Of a stretch of DNA of 64,000 nucleotides, positions 5,801-62,129 are shown piece after piece. A program made the position numbers and the translations under genes. Under the pieces are notes generated by a model. That model ran no database searches. It saw nothing but the letters and a program-made list of their open reading frames with translations, and was not told the origin of the DNA. This DNA is from Sphaerolaimus hirsutus (Eukaryota; Nematoda; Chromadorea; Monhysterida; Sphaerolaimidae), in assembly GCA_964036195.1 (NCBI GenBank), contig OZ038458.1:13901832-13965831 (forward strand), read 5' to 3'. The stretch's first letter is position 1; every line of letters begins with the position of its first letter.

Positions 5801-8800
5801 GTTGAGCTACTCCCGAATAACTCCCCCCTCTTTGAGGTGCGGGACGATAAAACACGCATAAAAGATCTTTTTATTTATGTATTCTGTAAAAGCATGTATT
5901 CTTTTGCGATGCTGTTCACTACTATTGATATCATTCCTTGAAAAAAACTCCAAAACTCCAAATAACTCCAAAAATTGAAAAACTCCACCCTCGAATTACC
6001 ACCAGTCAAAAAACTCTGACGAAAGAAAAACTCCCCTGGGGATTTATTCTGAGAGTTACGGTAATATGAATATATTTACCAATATAACATGTTCATTCAT
6101 TACACATTTCATTACATTCATACACATCCTTCGCACCGCAGTGAAAGACTTCAACGGCAACGACGCGATCATCTACGCAATGGACCCGGCGCGCGTGAAT
6201 CAACTCGGCGTGCAGACGCCCAGCGACGAGCACTTCTTAAATGGTGCGCAGCGCTGCACTTGAGGCCAGGGGTTACTCCCAGACCCTGTAAAATGTCACG
6301 CAATGTGTCAAAAGTCATGTAAAATGGCAAACTTTATTTGACATTTTACATGGTCTGGGAGTGGAAGGGAGTGGGCCAGACAGCAAGCTTCCAAAGACCT
6401 GACCACTACCTTCGCAGATCCTTCCTTCGTCGGTTCCTACACCCTGGGCCCATACGCGTACTTCTTCCTTCGGGAAACACTGCCGCGTTCCAGCCTGGGC
6501 TCCGCAAAGGGCCTGTGCTCCGTCGGCGCCAATCCCTCTTCCGACGGGACGGGCAGCGACGACGGGTCCTCCGCGGCCGGCCACGAGCCCGTCATGCACG
6601 CCAGAGTTGCTAGAGTTTGCGCTCAAGACGCCGGCGGCGGCAGTCTGCCCTTCTCGCAGATGTGGACCAGCTTTTTGAAGGCCAGGCTCAATTGCAGCGC
6701 GCCGGGAGAGTATCCATTTTATTTTGATAGACTCGGTTTGTTTTTGTTTGTTTTTTGAAAAATCAATTTAGTGATCAATCGCTTCAAGTGATGCATGTTG
6801 AATTTTTTTTCAGAAGCGGTGTCAAATGTCGTGCTGGGCAACTACGACAACTCTGGTGCCAGACGGCAACTGATTTATGCGGCAACTGATTTATGGAGTC
6901 TTTGGCACGCCGTATGCGGCTGTGCAGGGTGAGGCTCATTTTCTATTGACCTGAGTGTGCAGTGTCACGATGCAAAGTTTTCAATGCCTTCTCAGGGTCG
7001 GCGGTGTGCGCCTTCGATGTCTCCGCCATCGACAACGTGTTCGCAACGGGCGATTTCGCCTCGTCCAGCGACCCGGCCGTGGCCGTGCCCACTCCCAGAC
7101 CGGGCGATGTCAGTTCCAGATACCGTATTTACCCGTATAATTTCCCCCGGGGAATAATTTTTTTGTCAAATCTTTTTGAGGGGGAACTATTCAAAGGGGG
7201 AATAATGCTAGTGAACCATTTTGTAACATGTATTATCACACTACGTGAACATTATGTCCTGTCTCCGTTGCTAGTGCACATTCCATTCCACCTTTGCACA
7301 CCAGATGTGCTGCATTTGCATTCAATGAATGAAACCGTACACAGCTCTTCTGCTAGCTCCGACTTAATCAGTTGTTCTAAAAAAATGTCTGCATTATCGT
7401 TCTTCCACCATTGGGGGAATTATTCGAGTGGGTGAATTTTTTAATCACCCGTCTAACACGGGGGAATTATTCGAGTAAATGCGGCAAATACAACGCAACC
7501 ATTCCGCACGCGCAACTGTGTGTTACTTACGCAGTGCTCCGCATCGGGTGCGAATCGAACGGACGAGCAGCTGGCGTTCATTAAGACGCACCCTTTGATC
7601 GCCTCCGCCGTGCCCAACTTCTTTGGCGCGCCTGTGCTCGTATACACTGATAATGGGTGCGTTTCTGGATTGCTGAAAGTTATGTTCTTTTGTGAAACTT
7701 AGGTCGTTTTTTCAGTGAGCGAATGACGCGTGTTGCAGTCGATCCCCAGGTGACCGACGTATATGGCAAACGATATGACATCCTTTTCGTTGGAACTGGT
7801 TAGTGCTTTTGTATTGCGCTACGCACACTGTTTGTGAACTGTCAATTCAGTTTCCGTTTCTATTTTGTAATCAGATTTTAGGTGAGATATTGTTCAGGTG
7901 TACATGCGGAAATGCCAAAAAATAATTAATAATTGCAATTATTCATGTGCATTTGAACATCGTTCTACGACTCATCAACTCAAATATGAATCAAAACCAG
8001 TCGGGCCAGTTGACATCCGATGTCATTGTCAACGATTGAATTACGTGTGTGCTATAACTTGTTCTTAATGATCACATGGGCCCTTACGCGCAGATCGCGG
8101 CCGAATATTGAAATTCGTCAACATCAAGCCGCACGCCGGCGGCGAAGAAATAGCTGTGCGCATCGAGACGTTGCGCATCATGACCGACGCCTCACCCATC
8201 CGCAACCTGATGCTGCACAGGTCTGTCCATTTTGACGTCTCATCCCTGTGAAGCTTGGAAATTCAAGACTCAGTGTATTTACTCATTTAACAGATCTCAA
8301 ATTACCCAGCTCACACGCGCTGGTAATAAAAATCTGCCCATGGTGATAATTGACAGATAACTGCATGTGCAAATTTCACTGAGTCATGAATTTCCATGAC
8401 AGTTTCTCCCTCTTTCCACAACCTTCAAAACCAACCAAAACAACTCAACCTACCTCACAGACCCTCAGCCCACACCGCCGACAGCGTAGCTTCATCACAA
8501 GAGTCCGTGCTGCACTCCAGTTCCGTCCACCGCGCGCACGTGCTCGCCGTGGCCGACGACCAGGTGCGCAAGGTCGCCGTGCACCGGTGCACCCAGCAGG
8601 TCGACTGCGCAGAGTGCGTTGGTCTGAGGGATCCGTACTGCGCGTGGAATGTTCGATTGCGCAAGTGTGTGTCGGCTATCGATGGGTTAGTGTTGTTGGG
8701 CGTTTGGTGTCAATATCGGAGCCTGTAAAGTGTGAAGTAAAGTGTCAAATGTCATGTAAAATGTCAATTGCCATGACAAATGTAGGGTAAAGTGTCAATT

Positions 8801-11555
8801 GTCATGCAACTTTTTGTAATAATTGTTTTCGTTTCTTTGTTGTTTTGATTATCATTTTACATGACATTTTACACTTTACTTTACACTTTACAGGGTCTGG
8901 TGGCAGTCCCAAGCCCTGAAAAGTGTAAAGTAAAGTGTCAAATGCAAAGTAAAGTGTCAAATATAAAGTCAAATGCAAACTAAACTAAACTGTCAATTGT
9001 CATGCAAAGTTCAGTAATAAAATCTCTTCTTTATTGTTTTGATTGACACTTTACTTTGCATTTGACTTTACATTGACACTTTACACTTTACAGGGTCTGT
9101 TACTGCCCCCTGTTGATGTTTGTTTTGAATCGTGTTCTGTTACTAATCGATCTACATTAAACCATCGCAGCCGGTGGTCGGCCACAGACAAGTACGTCCA
9201 GTCCGTGTTGGCGGGCGACAAGTCCGATTGTCCGGCGCCGCCCAATGTCATCAGGAAGCCTGTAAATTCAGATGACCCCTACCAGTCGCATTCGAACAGC
9301 ATTCTGATGGCCAGGGATGCCGCCCTGGATGCCGATCAAGTGCTGCAACAGACTGATAATGATGTACAGTCTGTGAAGGGTGATGAAAATATGGTGGATC
9401 AGATTGCACCAAGCAAGGTGCCCCCGTCTGAAAGTGAGATTGGCTTTTTTGCATTTGTCTATCCGCGGTCTCGTGATGATTTTTTTGTATGTTTCATCTC
9501 TATCCCGTTGTAGCTTTTAGAACTAACTCGCCTTTTCCTCACTACTACAAGCGCACGATAAATGCAACTTTTTAGGTGCTCCACCAGCAAATGGCGTCCT
9601 GTACAACATCGGCTTCGACTATGGTAAGATTTGTACTTAATACTGCCTGCCTGACTTATTTGATTCACTAATTATCATATTTATCACATGCAATATTTTC
9701 CACGCCTTTTCTGTTAGTACAGGGGTGGGCATCTTCAGTTACCGCTGGAAAAACGCGATAGCTTGAGCTACGGTTGAGCTATCACCGTAAAATTTTTACA
9801 CAATAGAGTAGACTCCATAGGACACCTATTCTGAAATTTGCGACCCAAACGGCCACATTTTGGGTGAGTTGTGGAACACACAGTTTTTGGTGTAATTTTG
9901 TTGCTTGACCCCCCCTTATCTCGGGACTGGGTGACTATTCGAGAAGGAAAAAGAATTTGGTTGTAGCCCCGACCACAACATACTCAAAGGGCATCAAAAT
10001 CGGCCAATGTACGACAGAATGGGACGACACCAAAGACCGGTGACCCCCCCCCCTAAAATGCCACCCTCGATTTATCCTATGGGTGACGCGAAATCACAAA
10101 TTTCCACTCAAACTTTGTGTTACACAACTCACCCAAAATGTGGCCGTTTGGGTTGCAAACTTCAGAATAGGTGTCCTATGGAGTCTACTCTATTATGTTA
10201 AAATTTCACTGTGATAGCTCAATCGTAGCTCTAGCTATCGCGTTTTTCCAGCGGTAACTGAAGATGCCCACCCCTGTATAGTCTACTGACGGTACACCTT
10301 ACAATGAAATCTACCATATCTCATCTGAATAAACGAACGGACATAAAGTGTTTCTCATCAGATCACATTGCGCCCACTCTGGGTGGATTTGGTGCGCAAT
10401 TTTTCACGTAACCTTATTCATCAACATATGGTAGCGTTCATTGTATACCGTTCTGTCCCTCCAGTATAGCAACTCCCATTCAAGCGCATTCTAAAACTGC
10501 GGTCACGCAGGCGCGCCGCCATCGAAAGCCGCATCGTCGGGCGAACTGCAGTCGACGCGGCAAGTGAAGTCGACCGGCGACCATTCCAAGCCGGTGTCGC
10601 TGGCGTCGAACCCCTACCAGCACATAGCGAGCACGACCGTGGGCAGCGTCGTGTTGGCCGTGGTCGCCAGCGTGGCCGTGAGCAGCGTGATCGGCTTCGC
10701 CGCGGGATACTTGTGCCGCGCCAGGAGGTGCTTCCGCGGCAGGAAGCAGCTGAGCCAGAAGAGCAGCTTCCGCATGGACGACTATCCTACTAGTGCGGCC
10801 AGCATCGGTTCGTCTGACGTTTGAATACCGTTTTTTTGTGAAAAGAGTTCACAGAGTGAAAATTATGATGGGGGTCTTTCGAGGGTGTATTCGAGGTTTT
10901 CAGGAAGGATCGTTATATTCCCAAGAGGCAATATGAAAAGGTAATATGTATGGTTACTCAAAACTTTTTTTTCCGTTCGGTACCTCATTCAAGACCGATT
11001 TCGAGTGTGGGGTATTTTTCCTCAGCTTGTTTAGACCTAGGGGGAATTTCGGGGGGGGGGGGGGGGTAAATTCAAGGAAGGTATTTCGAGGTAATATGGT
11101 AGTTACATCTGCTTTCGTGAAACCCAACCAGCATTTGTGTTACAGTAACAGCGACCACGCCGTTGCCCACGTCGATCTCGAGCGGGCTGTACGCGGCGGC
11201 GCAGCAAAACGGCAACGCGCCCGTGCGGCGGTCGCACAGCAGCGCGGCCACGCCGCAGCCGGTCAACGGGAACCGATCGCGGCAGGTCATCGACGCCTAC
11301 GACGAGTCGGCCAGCGGGCGGAACCAGCTGCAACCGATCGACGTGTCGCTGGTGCTCGACTTGGACAGGGACTGCGGCGCGGATGGTCTGCGCGACGCGC
11401 CGCCCAGATATCCGAATGACAGCGTCAACAGATTCAACACTGTGAATAGGACTGAGTCTGTGCCGCTCGGCGCTAATGGCGACGCCGGCGGCAACTTTTC
11501 CTGCACCACTTTGCCCAGAGATTATAAGGTCAAAGTGAAGCAGTGCTATTTATAA
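2860..11555 (+). CDS. Transmembrane semaphorin, class 1/6 type (5' incomplete, frame broken in one exon)
   Basis: Axon-guidance ligand or receptor of the cell surface, binding plexins through its Sema domain. Exons: 2860-2970, 3706-3823, 6142-6243, 6418-6735, 6814-6928, 6996-7108, 7535-7656, 7716-7798, 8094-8220, 8485-8685, 9171-9433, 9576-9623, 10511-10807, 11146-11555 (stop). All introns are GT-AG and phases match except at the duplication. Seen: CRNYIRVL and CGTNAF, then FLKARLNCSAPGEYPFYFD, SAVCAF, FIKTHPL, VDPQV, YDILFVGTG (Sema blades). A PSI domain follows with CTQQVDCAECVGLRDPYC, then a linker of about 130 residues, one TM helix near 10630-10710, and a cytoplasmic tail. No Ig or TSP domain, so the Sema1/Sema6 architecture. 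The N-terminal Sema part and signal peptide are not found. A 16-bp tandem duplication at 6864-6895 shifts the frame in the fifth listed exon. Confidence 0.9.
4354..5646. mobile_element. hAT-like MITE, CAGGGGTCTCC termini
   Basis: Begins CAGGGGTCTCCTAGG and ends GGAGACCCCTG, flanked on both sides by the 8-bp duplication GGCCAAAG. Internal sequence has poly-G/C and CTATCTAT tracts. Relatives are at 15244-15753 and 51392-51886. It is interrupted by another element at 4377-5161. Confidence 0.85.
4377..5161. mobile_element. hAT-like MITE with ACTCG pentamer arrays
   Basis: Begins TAGGGCTCGAACTCG and ends CGAGTTTCGAGCCCTA. The ends run into ACTCG tandem arrays. It sits in a G run, so the target duplication would be eight G and cannot be told from the flanks. 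Innermost of three nested insertions. Confidence 0.75.
5790..6063. repeat. TIR element of the CTCCCCC/ACCGTA family
   Basis: Left side carries CTCCGTTGAGCTACTCCCG and CTCCCCCCTC, right side CTCCCCTGGGGA and ends GAGAGTTACGGTA. It resembles other C-rich elements ending in TACGGTA at about 7.1, 12.95, 19.5, 54.5 and 58.0 kb. Non-coding. Confidence 0.5.
6273..6374. repeat. Introner-family TIR element inside a semaphorin intron
   Basis: Starts near ACTCCCAGACCCTGTAAAAT and ends CATTTTACATGGTCTGGGAG. Same family as the elements that form whole introns at 32000-32166 and 44797-44958. Here it lies inside the 174-bp intron 6244-6417 and its ends do not coincide with the splice sites. Confidence 0.75.
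6864..6895 (+). repeat. 16-bp perfect tandem duplication in a semaphorin exon
   Basis: CGGCAACTGATTTATG occurs twice in a row (6864-6879 and 6880-6895). With one copy the exon reads through to the conserved YGVF...PY and SAVCAF motifs and matches the phase of the next exon. With both copies the frame shifts by one. Confidence 0.95.
7124..7486. repeat. TIR element, ACCGTATTTACCC family
   Basis: Left end TACCGTATTTACCCG with C-rich ATTTCCCCCGGGGAATAA. Right end mirrors it with GAATTATTCGAGTAAATGCGG. It begins about 15 bp after a semaphorin splice donor and fills most of that intron. Non-coding. Confidence 0.6.
8722..9105. repeat. Two tandem introner-family elements in a semaphorin intron
   Basis: Two adjacent foldback units made of AAAGTGTCAAATGTCATGTA-type repeats, each ending in CTTTACAGGGTCTG (at about 8890 and 9090). 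Termini resemble CCCTGTAAAATG. They lie between the PSI exon and the next exon. Confidence 0.7.
9719..10277. mobile_element. TIR element with CAGGGGTGGGCATC ends
   Basis: Left CAGGGGTGGGCATCTTCAGT and right ACTGAAGATGCCCACCCCTG are exact mirrors. Inner parts (CGCTGGAAAAACGCGATAGC and CTATTGTGTAAAAATTT-like) also pair. The termini resemble hAT ends, but no clear 8-bp duplication is seen. It lies in a semaphorin intron. Confidence 0.75.
10278..10460. repeat. Copy of a CTTACAATGAAATC repeat
   Basis: Contains ACACCTTACAATGAAATCTA followed by CATCTGAATAAACGAAC, the same sequence that forms the ends of the palindromic element at 59395-59575. Confidence 0.55.
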
Positions 11556-12715: not shown

Positions 12716-13590
12716 AAACGTATTTACGTTTTCTTGATAAATACGTGTACTTAAGTACTGCGTAAATACTTTTACGTTTCTTCCCGAAAAAATACCGGTA
12801 CTCACTTACTCGCGTACTCGTTGAAAGTGCGCGAGTACAGAAAACGTTTTTCATGTCGCGTACTCGTTGAAAGTGCGCGAGTACAGAAAACGTTTTTCAT
12901 GTATTTACCCAGGCCTCTTTATCGCTTTTTCAAGACATACCGTATTTCCTCGAAATACCCCCGGGGGGTGATTGTTTCATAGTGGTCCCGAGAGGGGGGG
13001 GGGGTTAAACGAGGGGGGGGGTTATTATTTCACACGAAAAATTTTCAAATCCCAGTACGAAATTGTCGTCTGAAACGTACGCAGACGTCAAAAAATACAA
13101 CAAAAACCGCCATTTATAAGGTTATGTAGACTAATGTTAGTATGTAGACGGTATAAACACTGTTCTAACGTGATTACGACATTGTTTTAACCTGTGTTCT
13201 GCACTACGCAGAACACAAACTGCAGTATTTGTTATGTACGTTCTCTTTACACTCAATCTGGGGGGGGGGTGATTGTTTCATAGTGGTCTCGAGAGGGGGG
13301 GGGGTCAAACGAGGGGGGGGGTATTTCGAGGAAATACGGTAAGAACATAAGAAAAAAGCTAAAAGTTGGGAAAGATAATCAAAATTTGGTAACGAAGCAC
13401 ATATCACCAAAAATAGTTGAAAATGGCAAAAAGGAATGAAAATTAGTGATTTTAAGTGCTAATTTCTCAAAAATACTCACTTTTACGTTTTCCACGGTAA
13501 AAGTATTGTAATCATGAGTCTACTCATGAGTAAAAGTAAAAATTGTACTTTACGTTTTCTGTACTCAGTGATGAGCTCAGTAATTTTAAC
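12716..13590. mobile_element. hAT-like element with GTACTC/ACGTTTTC arrays, interrupted
   Basis: The right end AATTTTAACAACTCTG reads CAGAGTTGTTAAAATT in reverse, a hAT-type terminus. The left end is the degraded AAAGCTGTTGAAACGT. Subterminal sequence repeats TACGTTTTC and GTACTCG units. A second element (12949-13340) lies inside it. Confidence 0.55.
12949..13340. repeat. TIR element, ACCGTATTTCCTCGAA family
   Basis: Left ACCGTATTTCCTCGAAATAC and right GTATTTCGAGGAAATACGGT are exact mirrors, followed inward by G/C runs. It is nested in the GTACTC element. Related copies are at 19487-19889, 54486-54738 and 58009-58119. Confidence 0.75.
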
Positions 13591-23600: not shown

Positions 23601-26600
23601 CACATTTAAAGGAAACAGAAATGATGATGATGAAATAACAATGATGAACATGATGTGAAATTAATTATGCTCTATCAGATGGGAAATATTAAATTTCATG
23701 TTTCAGTAAAATTTAGTTGACACGAGCGTTTACCCAGTTACCCAGCGTGTGTGGCGTCAATTACCAAGCTCGTCTATTAACGTACGCGGTGGCGAGCATT
23801 TTGTTCAGATCGGAGCTGCTGTAGAGGGCGACCTTTCTCTGCCTTGCACCCCGTTGCCCGCCGGTCACAGGGCTGGGAACTGCCAGGGGACTGGCGGCAG
23901 TCTCCGTCGACGGGTACTGGGCCCCAATGGGCGTGCACAGGTCCAGCTGCGTGGGCTCGGTGAGCACGTCGGCGCTGCCAGACATCTCTGCTGCTGCTGC
24001 TGCCTCGATCTCTCTCTTTCAGTCAACCGGTGCAAGTGCCGCTGCGATGGCTCTCCAGTGCGCCACTCGGCTCACTTTTATTGACCCCAAAGTGGGATGT
24101 TTTTTTGCGCGGTGATGTGCAAGATTTTTTTACTTTGTAAGCGGAGCTTCGATTTTTAGTGCGTGTTGTATTCTAGTGCGTCATTTCAGTTCTTTTTTAG
24201 TGCGTCAAATAATCCGTGGTATGTTTCTCCCAATAAGAGTACCTAGTGGGAAATGCACACCTTTATCGAACGAAAAAGGTGACAAAAATTCTCCAAAAAG
24301 TATATTTTTGAAAATACTCCCCCATCGTCATGCGGTGCACACAATGAAGCAAATACGATACGCCGCTGATCAAAATGAGTGGTGTGCGTTTTGTGGCCCG
24401 TATGAAACAGTCTATTAAAAACCCTCCATCCACTCAAACAGACTAGCCGCAACCAGTCGCGTGATGCCGGGCGCGGTCAGCTACGCGGCCAGCTCCATTG
24501 CCATCCTGCAGCGGGTGGCGCTGTCCTGCGTCGACTCGTGCCACGGCCATCTCAATGCCCAATTGAAGGCGCACGTGAAGCAGGCCAGGCAGTCGCTGGC
24601 GCACGTGCACAATAAGCGACTGATGCTTGGGACTGGGGTGGAGGGCGGAGCCAAGGGCGATGAGATAAGGGCTACGCATGTGCGCTATCTGGGTGAGTCG
24701 GGTGCCTGCGCACGAGCCCTGTGGGGTGAAGTGTCGAATGTCATACAAATTTGTCAATTGTTATGCAAAGTTCAGTTATAAAATGTTTTCTTTTTGTTAT
24801 TATTGACACTGGACACTTGACTTTACACTTTACAGGGTTCGGGACTGAACCCAGATAGTCGTCTGATTTTATGTTTTGTAGGTATACTCGGTGGACATCA
24901 CACTTAGTATGGAAACCTACCATAACCCATCTGAATAATGAAGCAAAAATTATACAGTTTTTTCATCGTAATGTTTATGTAGTTTTTACCATGGAATAAT
25001 TGAGTACGAAAATTATTACAAGATTTTATTCATTAAATTTCGTAGGATTCTACACATACTTTGCGGTCCGCCGAGTATAGATATTGTCTGTTTTCCCACG
25101 CAGAGGACTTGCTGAGCAAGTTGCTGCAGGCTGTGCAGCTGGACACCAAGACCGCCCTGGCCGGCCTGTTGCAGTTCGTCACGCCCGACGTCACGTTCGC
25201 CAGCGAGACCCGTTTTCGCGTGGTGCTCGCGCGCGCCACCAGAGAACGCCTGGTGGTGCAGCTGCTGCGAGACGCCGTACAGCTGGCTGACGAATTCTGT
25301 TCTGGGGCCGGCGACAAGGCTTATGTGCATTCGGCGCTTATTTTACTGTTGTCGAGGTTCTGCCAGGAGCTGCAGGTGTCTGTAGCTGGGTCTGTTCTGT
25401 GTTCATGCCGTAATGGCGGCCCGCACACTAGTTGATACATTTCTGTCAACTGGTCTGTGTCAATTGGTCTGTGTCAACTCAGATTTCGGCTTCACGTGTT
25501 GCCGAGCGATCTGCAAATGCGCATGCAAAAATTTTGAAAGATAAATATTTTGGCAAGTGCATTTGGATATCGCTCCGCGACACGTGAAGCCGAAATCTGA
25601 GTTGACCTATACCAGTTGATTGTCAACTAGTGTGTGCGCTGCCAATTGCAACACTGTCATTTTTTCTATTAAAATTTTTTTCCTTGTTCCTCAGCTACCT
25701 GCTCAACCTGTGCGAGAAGCAGTTCTCTCTGGACGCGAACACCGAGTCTGCCGCAGCGGGCGGGCTGACCAACTTGCAGTCGGGGCCGCGGCCGCCCAAG
25801 GACGTGGAGCAGTACACGCCGGCCGACAGGGTCACCAAGCAGCTCGGCGCCGCCGCGCAGAGACTGCTGGATAGATACGTCGAGATGGAGGGCAGCGGCT
25901 TGTCGCAGGTGCGCATTGGTGTATTTTATGCTGATTTTAAAAGTATTGAGCTTCGGGCGAAGTGACTTTGATGTCGCCATTCGCTTTTTAAACATTCGAT
26001 GTGAAAATGTGCTCGATATGTAGACTACTAATGGCGGGCCACACACTAGTCAACTGGTCTGTATCAATTCAAATTTCAGCTTCGCGTGTTGTAGAACGAT
26101 CTCCAAATGCACATGCACCAATGTTACGCAATAAATATTGCGGCAAGTGCATTCGAAGGTCGCTATGCGACACGTGAAGCCAAAATCTGAGTTGACACAG
26201 ACCAGTTGACACACGTGTCAACTATTATTCATTGGGCCGTCATTTGTTCATCATTTTCGATGCGAACAGAAGTTATATTCTCGACATCACATGTCCAAAT
26301 CCTACACGCAACTGGCACATCATCACAGTTACTGGTTAAATCGGTGGACACGCGCGACTGGCTCGCCTGTCCCGAACCTAAGGCTGTGCGCGCAGTGATG
26401 AAGCGATTGGTAGAGGACTTGGCCGACATTGACAACCGGGTCGGCCAGCTGTACGTGGAGGGCGCCAGGAGGGCAGGTCTGCATATTGGGGGATTTTCGA
26501 GTTCCGATGGCTAGAAATGGTAAATATCCAACCGCTTCGCTGAGCGTGTGCGGCGAGAAAAGAGACCACAGCACTTTACGGCACCTGGGGCCACTCCCAA

Positions 26601-27478
26601 ACCCTGTAAAATAAAAAACGACCGGTAAACATAAACTTTTACGTTTTACAGTGTATTTTACATGACATTTAACATTTGACAGAGTTTGACAGGGCCCCCT
26701 TATCACCGTAATCCCCAAATAACAGCGCCCATTCCCAGGCGGCGGTGCGAGCGATTCGAGCCGCGGCCGTCGCACGCTGACTGCAGGCGCACGCGGCACA
26801 TCTACAAAGGGCACCGGCTGGCGGCCGCTGGACGGCGGCGGCGCTATGAACGCACTGGATAAGCTATGGGCTGAGAGAATCGACTATTTCGCCCCGGTGC
26901 AGTTCAACAAGGCCAGCATTGTGATGGGCATAGTGAAGATATGCTTGAAGACTCTGCTGGAAAGCGTTAGGCTGAAGACTTTCAGTACGTACGGGTTGCA
27001 GCAGGTGCAAGTGAGTTCGTTTGAACTATTATAACATCCAAAAATAATAATATTTGTGAAAAAATGGCAAATCGGGTAATTCAAATCAAGGAAAAATCAG
27101 ACAATTCAGGGAAAAATTGAGTGTCGCCAATCAAACTTTTATTGATTTTAGATTTCGAAGTTTTTGTAATAATGCAAAATATAGAAGCGATACGGGACAC
27201 CTCCTTGTTGGATGGTTTATTCTACAAATATTCTATTGTGATTGCGTTATGTTAACCATTTTTATGTATTTTCCAATTTCACACATGTTGCCAGTTCAAA
27301 GTTAGTCAATTCCCAGGTGGACTGCCAGTACTTGCAGCTGTACTTATGGAACTTCGTGTACGATGAACAGTTGATGTTTGTAATGCTGGACGAAGTTCTG
27401 AAGACAACCATGCAACGTTGCATTCAACCGGTGCTTATGAACCAATCTATTGTCGATAGCATATGCGAAAGAGCGTGA
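14612..27478 (+). CDS. VPS51: VPS51, GARP/EARP tethering complex subunit
   Basis: Scaffold subunit of the GARP and EARP complexes, which tether endosome-derived vesicles at the trans-Golgi and recycling endosomes. Exons: 14612-14749, 15057-15218, 16469-16641, 17004-17185, 17427-17569, 18532-18658, 19055-19226, 24442-24692, 25104-25377, 25695-25908, 26329-26476, 26739-27010, 27317-27478. About 805 residues; the human protein is 782 from memory. Recognised blocks are [85 protein letters not shown] and a C-terminal [10 protein letters not shown]. Start chosen at the ATG before [10 protein letters not shown]; the frame stays open upstream, so the start is uncertain. The exon 9 donor GTCTGT was chosen to keep frame. 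AATAAA lies at 27719. Intron 7 hosts an antisense gene and several introns hold MITEs. Confidence 0.95.
15244..15753. mobile_element. hAT-like MITE, CAGGGGTCTCC termini
   Basis: Begins CAGGGGTCTCCTAGG and ends CCTGGCAACCCCTG. Flanking 8-mers GTGTCGAG and GTGTCGAA match at seven of eight bases. It lies 25 bp downstream of the VPS51 exon 2 donor. Internal CTATCTATC and poly-C tracts match the copies at 4354 and 51392. Confidence 0.8.
15754..16468. other. VPS51 intron remnant with degraded repeat
   Basis: AT-rich intron. The stretch at about 15910-16280 (GGCCCTGTGTCATTACGC, GGGTCTACATGCG) resembles 50915-51295 in the GPCR region, so both are copies of one unnamed repeat. Confidence 0.5.
17567..18285. 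mobile_element. hAT-like MITE that duplicated a VPS51 splice donor
   Basis: Element 17575-18277 begins TAGGGTTGGAAAAAAAACG and ends CATCGGCCAACCCTA. It is flanked by exact copies of GCTGTGAG (17567-17574, 18278-18285). The duplicated bases are the last three of VPS51 exon 5 and its donor GTGAG. Ends are octamer A/T runs joined by CG. The copy at 58320-58976 shares its interior. Confidence 0.92.
18687..18830. repeat. Truncated relative of the TAGGGTTGG A/T-run MITE
   Basis: TTAGGGATGGCC followed by A/T runs with CG and then GCTCCCATATATGGTTATCG...GTATATCAGAC, which matches the interior of 17575-18277. The right end is missing. Confidence 0.65.
19273..19480. repeat. 200-bp palindromic MITE, copy 1
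   Basis: Starts GTATACTCGACGGACATCAC and ends TTTGCGGTCCGCCGAGTATA. A close copy lies at 24878-25080 in the next VPS51 intron. Confidence 0.75.
19487..19889. repeat. TIR element, ACCGTATTACCTCGAA family
   Basis: Left ACCTCGAATTATCCCCCC, right GGGGGTATTTCGAGGTAATACGGTA, with runs of C and CCTCGAATAAACCCC inside. Non-coding, in VPS51 intron 7. Confidence 0.65.
19890..21413. other. VPS51 intron 7, no gene seen
   Basis: AT-rich intronic sequence between repeat copies and the 3' end of the antisense gene. It has a short GATAATGATAAT-like run at about 20530. No exon is supported. Confidence 0.4.
21414..23985 (-). CDS. Unrecognised Gln-rich protein, gene nested antisense in VPS51 intron 7
   Basis: Not recognised. 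Six exons on the minus strand join in frame with GT-AG introns: 23985-23786 (ATG), 23463-23307, 22724-22578, 22357-22217, 22142-21878, 21523-21414 (stop). The product is about 339 residues. The N-terminus is Ser/Thr/Pro-rich. The middle holds LPFWMLHP and [20 protein letters not shown], followed by [15 protein letters not shown] Gln/Ala-rich, probably coiled segment follows ([17 protein letters not shown]), and the tail ends AVRYPFLKP. No signal peptide or TM helix. All four internal junction phases fit, which supports a real gene rather than chance frames. One intron contains a CCCGAT hAT-like MITE (22773-23288). A family search is needed to name it. Confidence 0.75.
22773..23288. mobile_element. 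hAT-like MITE with CCCGAT arrays
   Basis: Begins TAGGGTTCAAACGGGAT and ends CCCGTTTGAACCCTA, flanked by GGGTAGGG on both sides (22765-22772, 23289-23296). Same family as 13724-14474. Lies in an intron of the nested antisense gene. Confidence 0.88.
23530..23757. repeat. Palindromic MITE, GTTGACA/CACACAC family
   Basis: Ends CCACACACGTGAGTTGTCGTG and CAGCGTGTGTGGCG with internal GTCAACT mirrored as AGTTGACAC. It lies in the first intron of the antisense nested gene. Confidence 0.6.
24712..24850. repeat. Introner-family TIR element in a VPS51 intron
   Basis: Left GAGCCCTGTGGGGTGAAGTG, right CACTTTACAGGGTTCGGGAC, with AAGTGTCGAATGTCAT and its mirror in between. It lies about 20 bp after the exon 8 donor but does not fill the intron. 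Confidence 0.6.
24878..25080. repeat. 200-bp palindromic MITE, copy 2
   Basis: Starts GTATACTCGGTGGACATCAC and ends TTTGCGGTCCGCCGAGTATA. Copy 1 is at 19273-19480. Confidence 0.75.
25422..25655. repeat. Palindromic MITE, GTTGACA family
   Basis: GGCGGCCCGCACACTAGTTGA on the left and CAACTAGTGTGTGCGCTGCC on the right. The inner TCAGATTTCGGCTTCACGTG is mirrored. A related copy is at 26030-26225. Both lie in VPS51 introns. Confidence 0.75.
26030..26225. repeat. Palindromic MITE, GTTGACA family
   Basis: GGCGGGCCACACACTAGTCAACT on the left (read as two blocks) pairs with GTTGACACACGTGTCAACT at the right. Inner AATTTCAGCTTCGCGTGTTG is mirrored. Closest relative is 25422-25655. Confidence 0.65.
26590..26700. 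repeat. Introner-family TIR element in a VPS51 intron
   Basis: Left GGGGCCACTCCCAAACCCTG, right TTTGACAGGGCCCCC, joined by TAAAAT/ATTTTACATGACATTTAAC repeats. It lies within intron 11 and does not reach the splice sites. Confidence 0.6.
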
Positions 27479-30800: not shown

Positions 30801-33800
30801 GGCCGTGGACATTGTGGTTGTAGGGGTGGCTGCGGCGCCGCTCGCGTCCCACTGAGTTGGGAGGGGCTGTGTGATGATTGGAGCAGAGTTTTTATAAGTG
30901 CTGAACTTTTTCCTAAGTAAACGTATTTTATTTTTACTCAACATTGAGTACAGAAAACGTTAAGTAATTTGTTTAGCTCTAATACTGCGTAAAAGGTGAG
31001 TAAACGTAAAATCCAATATCTAGTAATTTGTTTGGCTCTAGTTACTCAGAGAAAACGTAAAAACAAGTATTTTTTAAAAATTTTGTACCCAGGAAAACAT
31101 AAAGGCAAGTGAAAGTCAAAGTGAGAGTCGTCACTTTCCCTACTCGTCGCAACTTTCGTTTTTTCTACTCCCATTTTCGCGCCATTTCAATTCATTTGAG
31201 CGTTTCATGCGCCCCATAAATTTTTCTAAATTACATTTTCTGCACTCGCGTACTTTCAAAAAGTACGCGTAAACGTGAGCACAGGTATTTTTTAATAGGT
31301 GGAATGTAAACGTGAGTATTCACTGAGTACTAGAGTATATGTATTTTTCGAGTAAACGTAAACACTTTTCAACAAATACGGATTGGGCGAGACTTGTCAG
31401 CGATGAAACAAGGATAACGAACTAGATCTTTTCTGTTGATCCTAGTGATTAGAGATTCAGGTTTTACGGGTGTTTTCAGCTCGCCTCCAGTTGGCGACTG
31501 TTTTACAACGCGTGGAGAAGCCGCCGCCGCATCGGCGCACGCCGGAGGTGCCCCGCTATCGTTAGGAGACAAGCCCCTATTTATGAGCAACCTGCAACGT
31601 TGGCGAACTCTTTTAACGTAGTAAATTACCTAGATCAAATGTCTACCGCGCTAATAAATATAACGATATATACCAACAAGCCAAAAATCTACCTACAGCC
31701 GTTTTTTAGCTAGAAAATCCGATAAAAACCCTTCCAACTCATTTAAGTTTTCTAGAATGAGTATTTTTTATCTCCGTCAACTGTGTCAACGGACTCCACA
31801 TTCCGGTTAACTAAAATGCGTACAAAGCCCATTTATGTCCTTTCAACGTGTTGGTCACTTGAACAGCATAGATCACCTGAGCGGAGGAACCTTCTGTTCG
31901 GCGCTGCTCTGCTGCAGCGGCTTGGCCACGCCGCCCTCCTCCACCAAGACGTTCAACTGCTCACTTTGCTGCTGCGCCACCACGGACACGTTCTGCGTGC
32001 TCCAGGGAGCAGTCCCAGACCCTGTAAAATGTCAAATGTCAGTCAAAGTGTCAAAAGTCATGTAAAATGCCTAGTAAAATGGCAAACTGCCATTTCACCG
32101 GGCATTTTCCATGACTTTTGACACTTTGCATGACATTTTACATTTTACAGGGTCTGGGACTGGCACCAGGCCGCGTTGGCCACGCTCGTCCGGTCGAAGG
32201 TCACCTCGATCGGTCGCGCCGCGTCGATTGAAAGTGACGCCAGCAACGTGCGGCTGCGGTCGCTGGTAGCTCTATTCGGCTGCGGTGGGCGTGGTGATAA
32301 GGAGCGACAGCGATTCGCTGCTCCGCTTTGGGTCGGTTTGGCTGGCACGGTTTGAACAGGACAGGCGGGTGCCCGTTTGATACACTCGGAAGTGGTGTCT
32401 GATTTCGCTGGCGGCGCCGAGCTGCGGGGATCACATAGTTTATTTCAAATATTTACGTAGAGTGAAATGATATGAAAACGGTCCATAGCAGAGTCTCAAC
32501 TTTTTGTTTTCCGCTTGCGGAATATTTCGACCTAGCCGTTTTCCGGCAGCTGAAATTTTTTTATCGTTCCAGTTTTCGGCAAGTAAATTCTTTTACCGTT
32601 CCTTTTTTATCTTTAAAAAAAACTTTTTTCCTTTCCAGTTTTCAGTTTTCTGGTGGCTGAAATTTGATAACATTCCTGTTTTACGTACCGTAAGACAAAC
32701 ATTTTGACAGTACCCAAAACAGACCATTCAGTATCAGCAAGTAGCCGTTTCTTTTTGCTGTAGGCCGCCGCGCTGTGCGGCACCGCAACGCTAGGCGCAA
32801 TCTTAGCTGGTTGTTCCGTCACTTCCGCTGGCTTACTCGTTTTACTTGACACATCAGAGCAATCAGTGACATCAGCAGCGACACTATTGCTCGCTGGCTC
32901 AGTGCCAACGCTGTCAACTGGAGCACTTGGCTTTAGTGAATTTGGGCTCGTCGAAGTTTGTGCAGTCGTTGGTAAAACCAGTCTGCGCCTCGACGCAGCC
33001 AATGACCGGCTATCGGAATGATCAGAGTCGGAATCGTGAAAATCAAACACGTCGCCGCCCGTCGATGTGTCCGCTGGCCGCGAAGTGCCTGAAAAATTGC
33101 ACAATGAATTTTTTGTTTGCTTATTTTGAAACAAATGAAAGTTGCATTACCTGATGTGGGTGATATTACTGAGATGACACCAACATTAGAAGCGGCGCCC
33201 TTTTTATTCGGTGAGTTTGTCAACTTTCTCCGTTTATTCGGTGTGAAAAGTGTCGCTGGTTGGCCAGATTGATTCGCAGCCTGCAGTCATGAAACAAGTG
33301 GATCATTGTACCTGCGCACACTGGTTTGCACCGCTACTTTGGTGAAAACTGACATGGCCACATCCAGTGTACAATTATTGTATGCTATATGTGTTTTAGG
33401 TTTCAAATTTTTCAAATTTAAACTTACATAAATTTAAATAACATAAAATCATTCAACCGAGTCGATTCATTAAAATTTCAATTAAATTTCAGTTTTCAGG
33501 AAAGTGCAGCGCCAAAAGTATGCTGCGGTATCAGAGATAAACCACAACCGACCCACCTGCATTTGCATGTGTTTCCTTTTGTTACGCAAGTATTCCCGGC
33601 GGCGGCGCGCCAACGCATAAGAAGCGACCAGCGATGGCGAGGGACTAGTGCCGGCGGGATCAGCACTGCAAAATAAAATAAATGAAAGTCCAGTGCGAAT
33701 GTTTTCAACAATGGAAGTTGGACATGGAAATATGTTCAAAAAAGCTTAGAATACATAGAGAGTGACACTTATACTTGAGATGCATGTGGTCAGATGTAGA

Positions 33801-39800: not shown

Positions 39801-42800
39801 AGGGCCAGCCAATGCATGCTGCCCATGTGCCACTGCACAAGAATGAGCCACCCAGTGAAGTGCTCATAGGCCAAGTGCAAAATTTGGACAAAAGTGAATG
39901 GGCAAAAATGCTCAGCATTGGTGACTGCTCAGATGCAGAAAAATCCAAGTTAGTGGATGCAATTTTTGAGCTGCGACATGCATTTAGCTCCATGTTCAAA
40001 ACAGATGCATGCCAAAATGTGGATGAAATTGGATGCACAGATGTGGAGCATGAAATTGACACAGGTGACACCCTGCCATTCAGAGTTCCACCTAGGCACA
40101 TTCCACTTAGACTGCGCCCAGAGGTAGAAAAGATGCTCAAGGATTTGCTTGACCAAGGGTGCATTGTGCCTTCAAACAGCAATTACAGCAGTGCATTTGT
40201 GCTAGTGAAAAAGAAAGATGGCTCATGGAGATTCTGTGTGGATTTCCGCCAGTTGAATTTGAACACAAAGCAAGACAGCTATCCATTGCCCCGCATGGAT
40301 GATTTGCTGGATCTGTGGGCTGGGAGGAAATTTTTCTCCACCATGGACATTAAATGTGGATATTACAACATCCGCATCAAAAAGGAAGATCAGCATAAAA
40401 CTGCATTTACTGCATTGGACCAGTTGTTTGAATGGAAGTGCATGCCATTTGGGCTGCATTTGGCTCCGGCTACTTTTCAAAGAGCCATCAACAACATGCT
40501 GAGTGAACATCAAGGCTACTGCAGAGCATACCTAGATGACATCATTGTGGCATCCACCACACTTGAAGAGCACATTGCTCACCTGAAGGCAGTGATTGCA
40601 ACGACATGCAAAGCTGGATTGAGGCTGAATCCACGCAAGTGCCATTTTCTGAAAAACAAGATTCAGTATTTAGGGCATGTGATTAGTGGTGATGGAATTC
40701 ATGTGGATCCAGACAAAGCCACAGCCATTCAAAGTTACCCATTGCCTGCCACCAACAAAGAAGGCATTTCATTCATGGGACTTGTCAGCTACATGCGACG
40801 TTTTCACCACAACCTGTCCCATAAGTTGGCGCCATTGCGCAAATTTTTCCAAGCTGCTGAGAGCAGTAAGGCACAATTGAAATGGACACCTGAATTAGAG
40901 AAATTATTCAGGTAGATTTGCACTGAGATAGGTGATCCAAGGGCATTAGCAATGCCTGTGCCAGGAAATGACTATGTGATAACCACTGATGCTAGTGCCA
41001 ATGGATTAGGTGCTATGCTAGAGCAGGAAAATGAGCAAGGCAAGTTGCAGCCAATTGCTTTTGCTAGTCGTGTGACTGCACCTGCTGAAAAGCGCTACTG
41101 TGCCACTGAGTTGGAAGCGCGTGCAGTTGTTTATGCACTTCAAACTTTCAGGCCATACATAACTGGAGAAAAAGTGACAGTATTTACTGATCACCACCCC
41201 CTGACACAGCTGTTTCAGAAAAATAGCCCATCGCATAGGCTTTACCGCTGGTGTCTTGTGTTGCAACAGTTTGATGTGAAATTATGCTATAAGCCAGGAA
41301 TAAAAAATTTAGTGGCTGATGCTCTTTCAAGGGCACCTGCTGGCACAATTCCTGTTTGCATGGGGGAAAATGACTCCATTGACCAGCCAGAACTCACACT
41401 TGATACAGTGTGCAACATCAATTTCATCAGTGTGTCACACATGTTAGCCAAATTGGCTACACCAAAGGTGCACAACATTGCATTAGCAAGTGACAAAGAG
41501 CGCAATGACATGTTGCGCTGGCATCATGAAGGGCGCTGGGCAGCACATGCAAGTGCCTAGAAAACATACCAGCGCCTGAGACCATTCTATGGTCATGGAA
41601 CATGGCCCACACTTGCAGCTGATGTGCAAGAGTATTGCAAAAATTGCAAGACATGCAAGCAGCCATCAAATTGCTATGAGGTGCTGCCATTGATGCCAAG
41701 GCCACCTCCTGACCAGCCACGTCGGTGCTGGCACATGGACTTTTCCACGTTCATGCCAAACAGTTACAAAGGGCCAAAGTATTGCCTTGTTGCAATTGAT
41801 GCCATGTCGCGTTTCATCGAGGCAAGGCACAGCAATGCAACTGATGCAAAAAGTGCAGTCAAACTGTACAATGAAATTGTTGCCAGACATGGGGTCCCAG
41901 AAGAAATCGTGACTGACAGTGGGACACATTTTAAGTGCCATGAGTTTGAGACCACTTTGCAGAAAAACCAGACAGTTCTGCATGGCAAAACAGTTTCCAA
42001 AACCAGCAATGGCATCAGTGAAAGAGCCATACGCACACTGCAAGATGTGCTGTCAAAGAAAAAAGCTGATGACCACCGAGCTTGGCACCTGATCCTGCCT
42101 GATGCAGTGGCTGCCTACAATGCTACAGAGCATTCTGCTACAGGTGTGTCACCATTTGAAGCTCATTATGGCTCAAAACGCTCAACAACTGGGCATGAAT
42201 TTGAAATTGCACCGCCACTAGCCAAGTTTTGGCAACAGATCAATGAGAGAGTGGCAAATGCCCAGAAGAAAGCAGCAAGCTCTGCCTATGTCACAAATCC
42301 CACAACCAAATTCAAAATAGGTGATACCATTTTTGTGAAGGATACACCTGCCATGGGAAGTCGCAAAGCAAAATTGGACTTGCCCAATTCCAAAGAAGGT
42401 GAAATCATTTCATTCCCATCACCTAAGGCTGCAACCATAAAATTTAGCAATGGTAAAGTGCGTGTAGTCCCCATTAACATGCTGCAGCCCCATTCTTTAG
42501 GTTCAGGTACTTAGGAGAGGATCAACAGGAGACCAGCCAAGGAATTTAGGACCAGCACAGGTGATATTGTGATATAATGTAGTTTAGGTATTTGAGGCCA
42601 AATACTTCCTGCACCCCCCGAGGAGTTAGCAGTGACTTCCAGTGATAAAAGTGATCCTAGGCATACAGCATTGAATAAACAAAAAGTTCATCTTGTGATA
42701 CATGTGTGATCCTCCTTCCCGTTTCATTGTTCAAATAGTTGATAGCTGAGCCCCACAAGGCATCAGCCAGCACCCGAGCAGCCAATGAACCAGCAACCAC

Positions 42801-44210: not shown

Positions 44211-44631
44211 TTTACAAACACCCTGGGGTCCGTTTGGAAGTTTGAATAGAAAGGACGAGCGGTCAGTCTTTTTCACAGCTTGAAGGGTACGTTCTGGCTA
44301 AATTTTGCCTATGCAAATCACGTAATTGACCAACATAAAAATATTCCCGCTAGCGGTACGGCCTTTTAAGTATACCAAAATGCTGTAAAACAAATGTATT
44401 AGCATTTAAGTTTCATTTAGGCGGGATTTGGCTGAAGTCCAAATTTATGCAACATTTTATCAAAAAGATAATTAAAGCTGAAACACCGAACCGCGGGATA
44501 GTTCTTTCAACGGCGCCATGGCCGCACTTGTCGTACCGCAGAAGCCGCTGCTATGATGGAACAGACGAGCGAGGGTGTGTAATCAAATACGCGTTTAATT
44601 GCCATCATCAAACGTGAAACACAAAATTAAA
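44211..44631. promoter_or_regulatory. Shared head-to-head upstream region of the ANKRD and CNEP1R1 genes
   Basis: The ATG codons of the two genes face away from each other, 421 bp apart. The space must contain both 5' UTRs and probably a bidirectional promoter. It has scattered CG dinucleotides near 44490-44580 but no clear TATA box. The promoter role is inferred from geometry only. Confidence 0.5.
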
Positions 44632-45481
44632 ATGAATCTTTCCGGCGCAGATTTGAAGGCGTTCGAGCGGCGCCTTACGGAAGTGATAGCGTTTATGCAG
44701 CCTGCAGCGGGGCGCTGGCGACTGGTGCTGCTGTTGGCTACCGCTTGGCTCGTGTACGGCGCTTACGGCTGGCTGACCGACCCGCTCACTGGCCAGGTGC
44801 CACTCACGGACCCTGTAAAATGCCGTGTAAAATGTCAAGTTGTCAAAGGTCGTGTGAACTTGCAAACTCCTCTGCCTTTTTACAGGGCATTTGACATGAC
44901 TATTTACACTTTGCATGACAGTTTACAGGGCATTTTACAGGGTCTGGTAGTGCCCCAGGTGTCCCTCTTCGAGTCCATGCAAAACCACCTATTGTTCACT
45001 TCGGCGTTGCTCGTCACTGTCGCCCTGTTTATTTGCGGCATCCATAAGCGCGTTGTCGCGCCCAGTATGTGAGTCTTTTTACTTGTCAAGTGCGTATTTC
45101 TAGCCTGTAGCTAACGCAAATAAAAAGTCATCTTCTGTTATGAAATATGTGTAAATTATCGGAAAATACATGATGCGTACATAATATTGTAAACGTCATT
45201 CCACCAAAGTGTTTATTTCTCTTTTTAAAATGTGGTTATTGTGAAAATGCATTTGTGTATGCTTCAAGTTTGAAATGGGTCTGCCTGCTGCCTCATATTT
45301 TCGTCATTTTTGACAACAATTTGCAGAATCGCCGCGAGGTGTCGCGCTGTGTTGGCTGATTTCAACATGTCATGCGATGATGTTGGTTCTTGCTTTTTCT
45401 CTTGAAAATCCGATGTTTTTACGCCTGCCCGAATTTCAGAGCGGCAGATTATTACTGAGGCCGCGCCCTACTACCCCATGA
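44632..45481 (+). CDS. CNEP1R1: CNEP1R1, nuclear envelope phosphatase regulatory subunit 1
   Basis: Two-pass membrane protein of the nuclear envelope and ER that binds CTDNEP1 and lets it dephosphorylate lipin, controlling phosphatidate use. Exons: 44632-44796, 44959-45068, 45327-45381, 45440-45481; 123 residues, close to the vertebrate 125 from memory. Seen: DLKAFERRLTEVI and QPAAGRWRLVLLLATAW at the N-terminus, then TM segments before GWLTDPLTGQ and before CGIHKRVVAPS. The conserved tail is AARCRAVLADFNMSCDD followed by a basic, Pro-rich end. The first intron (44797-44958) is exactly one introner-like element. The start is the ATG directly before NLSGADLK. Confidence 0.96.
44797..44958 (+). 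mobile_element. Introner-like element forming the whole first intron of CNEP1R1
   Basis: The intron starts GTGCCACTCACGGACCCTG and ends CAGGGTCTGGTAGTGCCCCAG. The arms pair over about 35 bp including ACCCTGTAAAATGCC. Flanking 8-mers GCCAGGTG (44792-44799) and CCCAGGTG (44954-44961) match at seven of eight bases. Each holds the AG/GT splice junction, so the target duplication could have supplied both splice sites. Confidence 0.9.
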
Positions 45482-47004: not shown

Positions 47005-47852
47005 TAGGGTTCAAACGGGATTGACTTTTCGGGATCGGGATCAGGATCGGGATTCACTTTTTGAGGCTTCGGGATCGGAATCGGGATTGGGGGATCGGGA
47101 TCGGGATTGGTATTTTGAGATTTCGGGATCGGGATCGGGATTGGCCGGGATTGGGGTCACGGGATCGGGATCGGGATTGGCCGGGATTGGGGTCACGGGA
47201 TCGGGATCGGGATTGGCATTTTTTCGGGATCGGGATTGGGGTGTAGGGATAGAGATTTTCGTCACTGTTCTGGCATTCACAGTTGTTCATAAAGGTCTCG
47301 AAACACTGTTGGATGCCAGGAAAGTGACATGAAATGGACGCTGGGGGTTTGCGTTCACATTTTTGCACGCAAAAATTTCATTTTTTAACTTTTTATAATT
47401 TTCACTATTTTTTCCGGGATCCCGATCCCGGAAAAATTGGTGGAAATAATAAAAAGTGAAATAATGACGTTTTTGCATGCAAAAATGTGCAGGCAAACCC
47501 CCAGCGTCAATTTTATGCCACTTTTCTGGCATCCAACAGTGTTTTGAGACCTTTATGAACAACTGTGAATGCCAGAAAAATGGCCAAAATCTCTATCCCT
47601 AGAACCCAATCCCGATCCCGGAAAAATGCCAATGCCAATCCCGATCCCGATCCCGTGACCCCAATCCCGGCCAATCCCGATCCCGATCCCGATCCCGAAA
47701 TCTCAAAAAACCAATCCCGATCCCGATCCCGATCCCGAAACACCAATCCCGATCCCGATCCCGAAATCTCAAAAAGTGAATCCCGATCCCGATCCCGAAA
47801 AGTCAATCCCGTTTGAACCCTAATCCGGGATCGGGATCCCGTTTGAACCCTA
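47005..47852. mobile_element. Compound hAT-like MITE: two inverted CCCGAT-array copies
   Basis: Begins TAGGGTTCAAACGGGATT and ends ATCCCGTTTGAACCCTA, flanked by ACGAGGAG on both sides (46997-47004, 47853-47860). Inside, a second TTTGAACCCTA terminus occurs at about 47813-47822. The interior from about 47415 repeats the first half in reverse orientation, including CATGCAAAAATG and GCGTCAATTTTATGCC. A second copy probably inserted into the first. Confidence 0.88.
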
Positions 47853-48022: not shown

Positions 48023-49043
48023 ATGCACAACGCAGTTGCGCCGGGCCCTCCAGCGACACCGATCTTGTCGCGGATAGCCTCCAACACCACGGCGAGCGCG
48101 TCCATGCTGGACGTGCTGGCGGCGGCCAAGCTCGATGATGAGCAGTTCTGGCAGGACGCCTACCACGTGAGTTGCTCCCGTACAATGTCAAGTATCGAAT
48201 GTCATACAATTTTGTCACGTCTTGGAAAGTGTCGAAAGTTCAGTAATAATATCTTTTTGTTTTAATTGACATTTTACATGACGTTTGACACTTTACTTTA
48301 CAGTTTGTAGGACTTTACAGTCTGCAGGGTTGAGCGATGGAAAATTACGAAAGTCAATTTTCTCTGACATTCTTTTTTTTATCAAAAACTGTCGAAAAGG
48401 ATACATCATTGCACCGCGTTTAGTGTGATTCACTCGTTGGCACTTTGCTCACTCAGTACGGCGTCATGTTCCTGGTGGTGGCTGCGGACTTGGTGCTGGT
48501 ATTCGGAAGCGCAGTTCCCTTTCTGTTCCAGTATGTTGAAATCAGACGTCGGCGCTCGGCCAGAGGTTTTTCTCTGGTCGTCTGCGCCACTCTCCTTGCA
48601 GCCAATATACTGAGGATTATGTTCTGGTGTGTGGGTGATGTGTTTCTTTTGTTGTTGTTTTATTGTTTTGGGGTGAAATCTAAGAGAGCTACGGTAGAAC
48701 GAGCGATTTACAACATTCAAACAGACAACATGCGTAACTTTGCATAGGAATGGTCGGCGTTTTTTCACTGTTTAAAAAACGCCGGTATCTTTTTCTGTTT
48801 TTTTTAAATATGACAGCTGAATTTTCTTTGCTGAATACTGGAAAAAAGTCTTTATCCTTTCGATTTTGTTGGTTTCAACACAAAACCCTTCTTTTTCGCT
48901 GCGCAGGTTCGGCAAGCGGTTCCGCCCAGCGTTGCTGTTGCAGAGCGTCGTTATGATATGTGTGCAGGCGGCGCTGATCGATTTGGCCGTCGACGTCAAA
49001 AGGAAGAGTTTGTTGCCGCCCGTTAAAGACAGGACATTGTGGG
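48023..49043 (+). CDS. PQ-loop membrane protein, SLC66A2/PQLC1-like (3' part not found)
   Basis: Family members are multi-pass PQ-loop proteins of endosomes and the Golgi; vertebrate SLC66A2 is linked to phospholipid scrambling. Exons: 48023-48166, 48457-48626, 48907-49043, with phases 0, 2 and 1 that fit. Seen: a TM helix (VMFLVVAADLVLVFGSAVP), then the first PQ-loop with Phe in place of Pro before Gln (PFLFQYVEI). RRSARGFSLVVC and ANILRIMFW follow, then FGKRFRPALLLQSVVM. Exon 3 ends in a GTGAGT donor with remainder 1, so more exons must exist. No second PQ-loop was found downstream in the window. The antisense receptor gene lies just beyond, probably inside the next intron. The start ATG is a choice, since family N-termini vary. 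Confidence 0.8.
48173..48335. repeat. Introner-family relic in an SLC66A2-like intron
   Basis: After the donor come GCTCCCGTACAATGTCAAGT and TGTCATACAATTTTGTCA, and on the right TTGACACTTTACTTTACAG and TCTGCAGGG. The same TGTCA/TGACA motif style is seen at 24712-24850. Ends are diverged. Confidence 0.45.
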
Positions 49044-61556: not shown

Positions 61557-62129
61557 TAGGGTTCAAACGGGATCCCGATCCCGATCCCGGATCCCGTGAA
61601 ATTCCGGGATTTACCAGTCCCGATCCCGAAACCCCAATCCCGATCCCGAAATCTCAAAAATACCAATCCCGATCCCGATCCCGAAAATTTTCAAATCCCG
61701 ATCCCGAGAAACTCCCAAGTCCGGGATCCCGATCCCGGAAAAATTAGTGGAAATTATACAAAGTGAAATAATGACGTTTTTGCATGCAAAAAAGTGGATG
61801 CAAACCCCCAGCGTCAATTTTATGCCACTTTTCTGGCATCCAACAGTGTTTTGAGACCTTTATGAACAACTGTGAATGCCAGAAAAATGGCCAAAATCTC
61901 TATCCCTAGGACCCAATCCCGATCCCGGAAAAATGCCTATCCCAATCCCGATCCCGATCCCGTGACCCCAATCCCGGCCAATCCCGATCCCGATCCCGAT
62001 CCCGAAATCTCAAAAAAACAATCCCGATCCCGATCCCGAAACCCCAATCCCGATCCCGATCCCGATCCCGAAATCTCAAAAAGTGAATCCCGATCCCGAT
62101 CGCGAAAAGTCAATCCCGTTTGAACCCTA
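61557..62129. mobile_element. hAT-like MITE with CCCGAT arrays
   Basis: Begins TAGGGTTCAAACGGGATC and ends ATCCCGTTTGAACCCTA, flanked by the exact duplication CCCCTGGC (61549-61556, 62130-62137). The interior matches 39003-39571 and 47415-47822. Confidence 0.92.

Follow-up and report, generated by a model that had tools for sequence, protein, structure and literature searches.

How new introns arise in animals is a long-standing question, and clear recent gains are rare. Huff and colleagues are said to have described, in 2016, introners of Micromonas and Aureococcus that are MITE-like and in which the target duplication supplies a splice site. In the part of the survey by Gozashti et al. (2022, PMC9860276) drawn on here, introners are placed in 175 of 3,325 genomes and, among animals, in only two groups, with copepods named; the smallest families have 5 copies and the largest over 2,000. 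Among open-licence papers searched by title and the start of the abstract, none describing introners in a nematode was found; later work, reportedly from the Gozashti group, could already include this host. In the 64-kb stretch of Sphaerolaimus hirsutus DNA analysed here (the window), intron 1 of the gene CNEP1R1 is very probably a copy of a non-autonomous, near-palindromic MITE acting as an introner (introner A).

The sequence-only reading had described this intron as a 162-bp inverted-repeat element running from splice site to splice site, and the sequence was as described. The exon end GGCCAG was followed by GTGCCACTCACGGACCCTGTAAAATG ... CATTTTACAGGGTCTGGTAGTGCCCCAG and then by exon GTGTCC, and the 162 nt folded into one hairpin at -72.4 kcal/mol, whereas 100 dinucleotide shuffles averaged -39.8 (z -7.8). 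The element and one CAG accounted for all 162 nt, with no remnant of an older intron. With A excised, residues 6-110 of CNEP1R1 matched positions 4-108 of the Pfam profile PF09771 without a gap (105 residues to 105 positions, 138.7 bits), in line with the earlier view that such an insertion would not change the protein; when A was kept and translated, the match dropped to 127.7 bits and was split into two stretches. CNEP1R1 presumably lacked intron 1 before A was inserted. Intron 2 of the same gene was an ordinary one in which the arm HMM listed no family element. Coordinates of these and the other features are collected in Table 1.

Table 1. Features of the window, in window coordinates (slashes within motifs mark exon-intron borders)
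Feature	Position	Strand
Family copy in larger intron, semaphorin-like gene	6270..6367	+
Two tandem family copies, the second beginning at the CTG end of the first, in larger intron of semaphorin-like gene	8707..9110	+
Empty site: repeat copy lacking the element that L045 carries at the same point	12938..12982	-
Diverged family copy just inside donor of larger intron	24703..24855	+
Diverged family copy, larger intron	26588..26698	+
Partial weak family match, 17.4 bits	30444..30524	-
Introner B, putative whole-intron copy, CTG/GTGCCAG...CTGGAG/CAC, in reading frame downstream of ankyrin-repeat exons	32000..32166	-
CNEP1R1 exon 1, coding, MNLSGADLKAF...DPLTGQ, last bases = target CAG	44632..44796	+
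Introner A = CNEP1R1 intron 1, GTGCCACTC...GTGCCC, then duplicated CAG	44797..44958	+
CNEP1R1 exon 2, VSLFESM...VVAPS	44959..45068	+
CNEP1R1 intron 2, ordinary, GTGAGT...TTTGCAG	45069..45326	+
CNEP1R1 exon 3, start (IIAARCRAVLADFNMSCDD)	45327..45381	+
Diverged family copy, intron of PQ-loop (SLC66A2-like) gene	48172..48330	+
Introner C, putative whole-intron copy, subfamily with other inner arms, CAG/GTGCCAGTTCCGC...GCGGAACTGGCCCCAG/CAA	49301..49515	-

Comparison of A with the genome (348 Mb, 762 contigs) gave at least 81 matches, the best 40 of 1,519 candidates being scored. The pattern of the donor end, with up to 1 mismatch allowed, was found 8,612 times genome-wide (4,367 + 4,245), while its reversed control was found 0 + 0 times. 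In a sample of 20 stretches of 10 kb, taken at fixed spacing from five contigs, 34 family stretches were present in 200 kb, which extrapolates to about 59,000 genome-wide with decayed ones included, a somewhat high figure, since a few adjacent pairs are apparently both arms of a single copy. The 30 sequences most like A were fetched, L002 being A itself. Once the other 29 had been oriented by the donor end, 26 of them began with GTGCCA, the start that the sequence-only reading had proposed to look for across the genome; the exceptions were L007 and L020, without GTG at the left end, and L010, whose left end was unplaced. GTGCCA was preceded by CAG in 22 of these 26 copies, by CTG in 3 and by CG in L011, and the far end was followed by CAG in 23, CTG in 2 and TAG in 1. 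GT...AG ends were possible in A, B and C and, at the expected spot, in 24 of these 26 well-placed copies, on which ground a non-canonical introner of the Amoebophrya type, defined by non-GT/AG ends, was rejected.

No convincing long autonomous element with both ends was found in a scan of 356 kb of sequence, and Rfam gave no match at gathering score over 144 kb. A transposase elsewhere in the genome presumably moves the family. A scan of viral contigs with the arm sequence returned a single match of 18 bases (L001); no element of this kind was visible around it, and the match was taken as chance. A search for the SL1 spliced leader gave no match among the best 50 of 98,806 candidates, and its controls were silent too.

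Alignment of 47 copies, preselected to have a left-end GT and a plausible right end, showed that the family is a near-palindromic MITE with a 190-base consensus almost identical to its own reverse complement. The aligned copies comprised 34 from loci fetched by likeness to A (the twins L006/L019 included), 8 from the sampled stretches, and 5 from the window, with mean identities to the consensus of 88.7%, 82.6%, and 74.4%, respectively. The two arms differed chiefly at their tips, GTGCCA versus GGGGCA when read inward, in addition to a variable position 7 and a few weak central places. This tip difference gives GT at one end only, so that only one orientation can yield a GT-AG intron there. 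One base fewer was present before the right CAG in A (window 44952-44961), L005, L014, L020, and L029. In A, L005, and L014 the right CAG was followed by GTG, giving direct repeats of 6-7 bp; GTG also followed CAG in L011, L016, and L023, which had full-length tips, and its link to the shorter tip may be chance.

The target duplication was described from the 3 bases that precede the donor end and from a CWG lying within two bases of the opposite end. The left/right triplets were CAG/CAG in 27 copies, CTG/CTG in 7, and mixed in 6 (Fisher p 0.0006), that is, 40 of the 47 copies, the other 7 being left out as CWG was missing on one or both sides. The way the middle base goes together on both sides points to a duplication rather than element sequence. 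Copies from loci fetched by likeness to A gave 22 CAG/CAG versus 3 CTG/CTG, the query itself having carried a CAG flank. CAG is CTG on the other strand, and neutral insertion thus predicts CAGGTGCCASTCCCAGACCCTG:CTGGTGCCASTCCCAGACCCTG at 1:1; were CAG in excess only within annotated genes and only in sense orientation, that excess would measure the number of copies acting as introns.

These results do not support the 8-bp target duplication proposed earlier for A, because the repeat of the family was 3 bp (CAG or CTG) and the bases after CAG varied among copies. The 8-bp repeat of A resolved into CAG, the preceding C, a first position that differed, and GTG, which belongs to the element on the left and to the exon on the right. 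Before the genome copies were compared, the 7-bp flanks had matched at 7/7 positions in A, 6/7 in B, and 4/7 in C, and random pairs gave exactly these counts in 0.16%, 1.9%, and 36% of cases, respectively; the 7/7 match of A now counts as 3 bp followed by GTG.

An empty site was found in the window (Table 1). With the element and one CWG removed, 45 bases of L045 aligned to it gap-free with 86.7% identity. L045 was a mixed copy (CTG left, CAG right), and the corresponding window site reads CCG. This shows insertion at L045 and gives the size of the duplication there to within a base. Further empty copies, in L036, L041, and L033, had single-base gaps in a C/G run.

By BLAST and arm HMM, the window contained nine copies and one weak partial, three of which are read as whole introns, and the placement of the remaining ones in larger introns follows splice sites as read from the sequence. 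A 26-base pattern of the element end, with up to 3 mismatches, gave 7 matches in the window and 0 in 100 shuffles. The earlier count of three whole-intron elements in 64 kb stood, B and C being real hairpins on the minus strand with z of -15.7 and -16.7, respectively. Their lengths (B, 167 nt; C, 215 nt) were not divisible by three, and each had stops in all three frames. On each side of B and C, one frame in three was stop-free, and excision joined exactly those frames. GC3 of the joined flanks was 0.65 and 0.88 for B and 0.71 and 0.62 for C, with 0.72 in confident exons. In B, the duplication was CTG and the frame-keeping AG (CTGGAG) lay 3 nt further on; as the frame requires this AG, the acceptor of B would not be the duplicated triplet itself.

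Several other features of the window were observed. The tandem copies at 8707-9110 share one CTG, one having apparently inserted at the end of the other, and the diverged copies at 24703-24855 and 48172-48330 both begin just inside GTGAGT donors of larger introns. A Ty3/gypsy-like retrotransposon with long open frames occupies 37388-42514, its first long frame being overlapped by a TCCCGAT-type array. Repeats rich in GGGATC/TCCCGAT were located at 13724-14475, 22767-23284, 39003-39531, 47005-47822, and 61557-62129, several of them flanked by TAGGGTTCAAACGGGAT; they lie in both orientations, and copies separated by 8-22 kb are up to 97% alike. A second dispersed repeat, likewise in both orientations and with copies about 87-96% alike, was present at 5162-5783, 15260-15757, and 51388-51873.

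Whether copies outside the window behave as introns was examined by reading frame and protein domain. After excision, the best coding frame was the same on both sides in 13 of 23 fetched copies versus 7.7 expected, and their summed coding score was above all 5,000 randomisations (z 3.5); the 23 were the 30 fetched copies minus A, the duplicate L019, three with unclear ends (L007, L010, and L020), and two with no AG near the end (L017 and L021). Read in antisense, these sites likewise agreed in frame, in 13 of 25 (null 8.4, z 2.3, p 0.009), so that part of the frame signal comes from coding sequence being present, whichever strand carries it. Copies from the sampled stretches showed no frame signal (z 0.3; 6 sites, one of doubtful membership).

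Spliced peptides from ten loci, then from nine more loci and B, were scanned against Pfam. In L014, a WHEP-TRS domain spanned the junction (after residue 42), residues 19-64 matching profile positions 5-50 at the same length with 50.6 bits (cut-off 32.5). In L006, twin of L019, Sec23_helical spanned the junction (after residue 22), residues 13-50 matching positions 1-37 with a one-residue difference in length and 29.6 bits (cut-off 27.8). Weak matches merely touched the junction in L004 (cuticle collagen N-terminus, 23.0, cut-off 23.5) and L031 (FMN_dh, 19.2, cut-off 24.9), an EGF match lay on one side of the junction only in L029, and in L011 a neurotransmitter-gated channel domain ended at the junction. 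No useful domain support came from 16 of the 20 spliced peptides. In the L011 gene, which is receptor-like, the element (about 1501-1678) lies at an apparent existing exon/GTGCGT donor, and old splice sites (CAG/GT) may be a further target.

The Sec23 gene occurs twice, about 50 kb apart (L006 and L019; G000:C6, about 3.14 and 3.09 Mb), with the element at the same codon in both, for which duplication after insertion is the simplest explanation; no Sec23 copy without the element was found. A, B, C, L006/L019, and L014 all have the donor end on the upstream side of the sense strand; the fetched loci were spliced and scanned in that orientation only, which is not an unbiased test of orientation. 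Excision kept the frame or the protein in these same copies, though not in every copy of the family, and among the 26 that begin with GTGCCA frame or domain points to an intron in some only.

Among the first 8 copies in the order of the donor-end list, the coding junction was plausible in L059 and marginal in L054, and the others looked non-coding; L057, whose 401 fetched bases contained no second end, was left unscored. The donor end was preceded by CAG in 6 of the 8, by CTG in 1, and by TAG in 1. Taken as one in eight of 8,612, the intron-forming copies may number about a thousand, with very wide limits. Many copies appear to lie in older introns or outside genes, as would be expected of a general transposon that forms introns when a coding CAG is hit. 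The earlier suggestion of an intron-making family was strengthened by the thousands of directional ends, the 3-bp duplication, the empty site, and the in-frame or domain-restoring copies in other genes.

In the mechanism proposed, the transposase would cut at CWG (CAG or CTG) and duplicate those three bases. When the element lands at a coding CAG so oriented that its GTGCCA end is transcribed first, the pre-mRNA would read CAG/GTGCCA...GTGCCCC CAG/, the donor GT being the element's own and the acceptor AG coming from the second target copy, and removal of the element would restore the original codons exactly. The sequence-only reading had held that one insertion supplies both splice sites through the duplication; this is kept for the acceptor AG and abandoned for the donor GT. 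The sites CAG/GTGCCA...CAG/ are presumably those used by the spliceosome. It is quite possible, if somewhat short of probable, that a foldback transposon became a one-way intron maker through the tip of one arm, GTGCC versus GGGGC setting the spliceable strand, and that its roughly 8,600 donor ends (up to one mismatch) have yielded on the order of a thousand introns. If this is true, that number of introns would place the family, for animals, among the largest introner families so far known.

The choice of splice sites leaves room for a variant within the introner reading. The usual donor is GTRAGT, to which GTGCCA is a weak match, and the inner sites GTAAAA and TTTTACAG in the arms look stronger. 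With splicing at GTAAAATG...TTTTACAG, the CNEP1R1 mRNA would keep 36 nt, or 12 codons, and the inner donor with the outer acceptor would leave 6 codons; in A the remainders of both inner sites are 18 nt, so that the frame survives. Such splicing is nevertheless rather unlikely. The inner acceptor leaves 19 nt and shifts the frame in L004, L006, L019, and L031, if these are coding as read, and leaves 22 nt in B (counted by eye). For the inner donor GTAAAA the remainder was 18 nt, and thus frame-compatible, in 6/6 loci checked, but its use would add residues inside conserved helices in Sec23 and WHEP; since a six-residue insertion there seems unlikely, the outer donor is favoured.

An alternative origin of intron 1 is an old ordinary CNEP1R1 intron that was invaded by the MITE and lost its older sequence. 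Family copies do sit inside older introns (window 6270, 8707, 24703, 26588, and 48172), and the L011 copy lies at an apparent existing donor. This history is improbable, however, as A contains no older remnant, element and intron fit equally closely in C, L004, L006/L019, and L014 and to within 3 nt in B, and the loss of every remnant each time is unlikely.

Similarly low in probability is a further variant of the introner reading, in which the inverted repeats are excised from the RNA by guidance of the hairpin, as in DNA transposons of C. elegans, and not by ordinary GT/AG recognition. A long pre-mRNA hairpin would bring both exon ends together; against this, A, L004, L006/L019, L014, and L031 have GT at one end and AG at the other, and CAG targets dominate among the loci fetched with the CAG-flanked query. 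The term hairpin-guided excision was absent from the papers returned by the literature search. The probabilities given to this variant and to the inner-site variant overlap with that given to the introner reading. That A is never removed and is read as 54 extra codons is most improbable, for although the open frame 44599-45072, a point absent from the sequence-only reading, spans it and its 162 nt are stop-free and translatable, a stop-free reading was also obtained in about 10% of dinucleotide shuffles, GC3 of A was 0.44 versus 0.72 in confident exons and thus without coding bias, no frame of B or C is free of stops, and L002 (A) and L016 alone of the 30 copies fetched stayed open in the chosen frame.

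With A read as an introner, the family could serve as a test bed in which gain is datable for each copy, orientation and CAG/CTG bias are countable, and splicing is testable through two bases. Its copy number and the picture of a symmetric transposon made directional for splicing would set it apart. PIF/Harbinger elements make 3-bp duplications, their usual targets being CWG and TWA, and the present family resembles PIF/Harbinger MITEs in its 3-bp duplication, here of CWG; assignment to that superfamily is a lead only. The introners of Micromonas and Aureococcus reportedly differ in host and ends.

As far as the sections of PMC9860276 drawn on here describe them, DNA-transposon introners are likewise non-autonomous, many with inverted repeats, short duplications, and ends that are the splice sites, and some bring one splice site and gain the other through the duplication; the Chrysochromulina introner likewise carries its 5' site and takes the 3' site from the duplication, which is 4 bp there. 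Compared with the introners in those sections, the present family differs in its CWG duplication, in being a near-palindrome over its whole length with chiefly the tips differing, and in its animal host. The introner elements of Amoebophrya, in the part of PMC7789003 drawn on, similarly have inverted repeats near both ends that form a hairpin, with direct repeats of 3-5 nt at the exon borders. They are described there as making up part of the non-canonical introns and as varying in their ends, whereas the ends here are fixed and of the GT-AG type, with thousands of copies alike. On the whole there is good support for reading the copies as a family of a known kind, the DNA-transposon introner, and as a new family in a phylum possibly without an earlier description.
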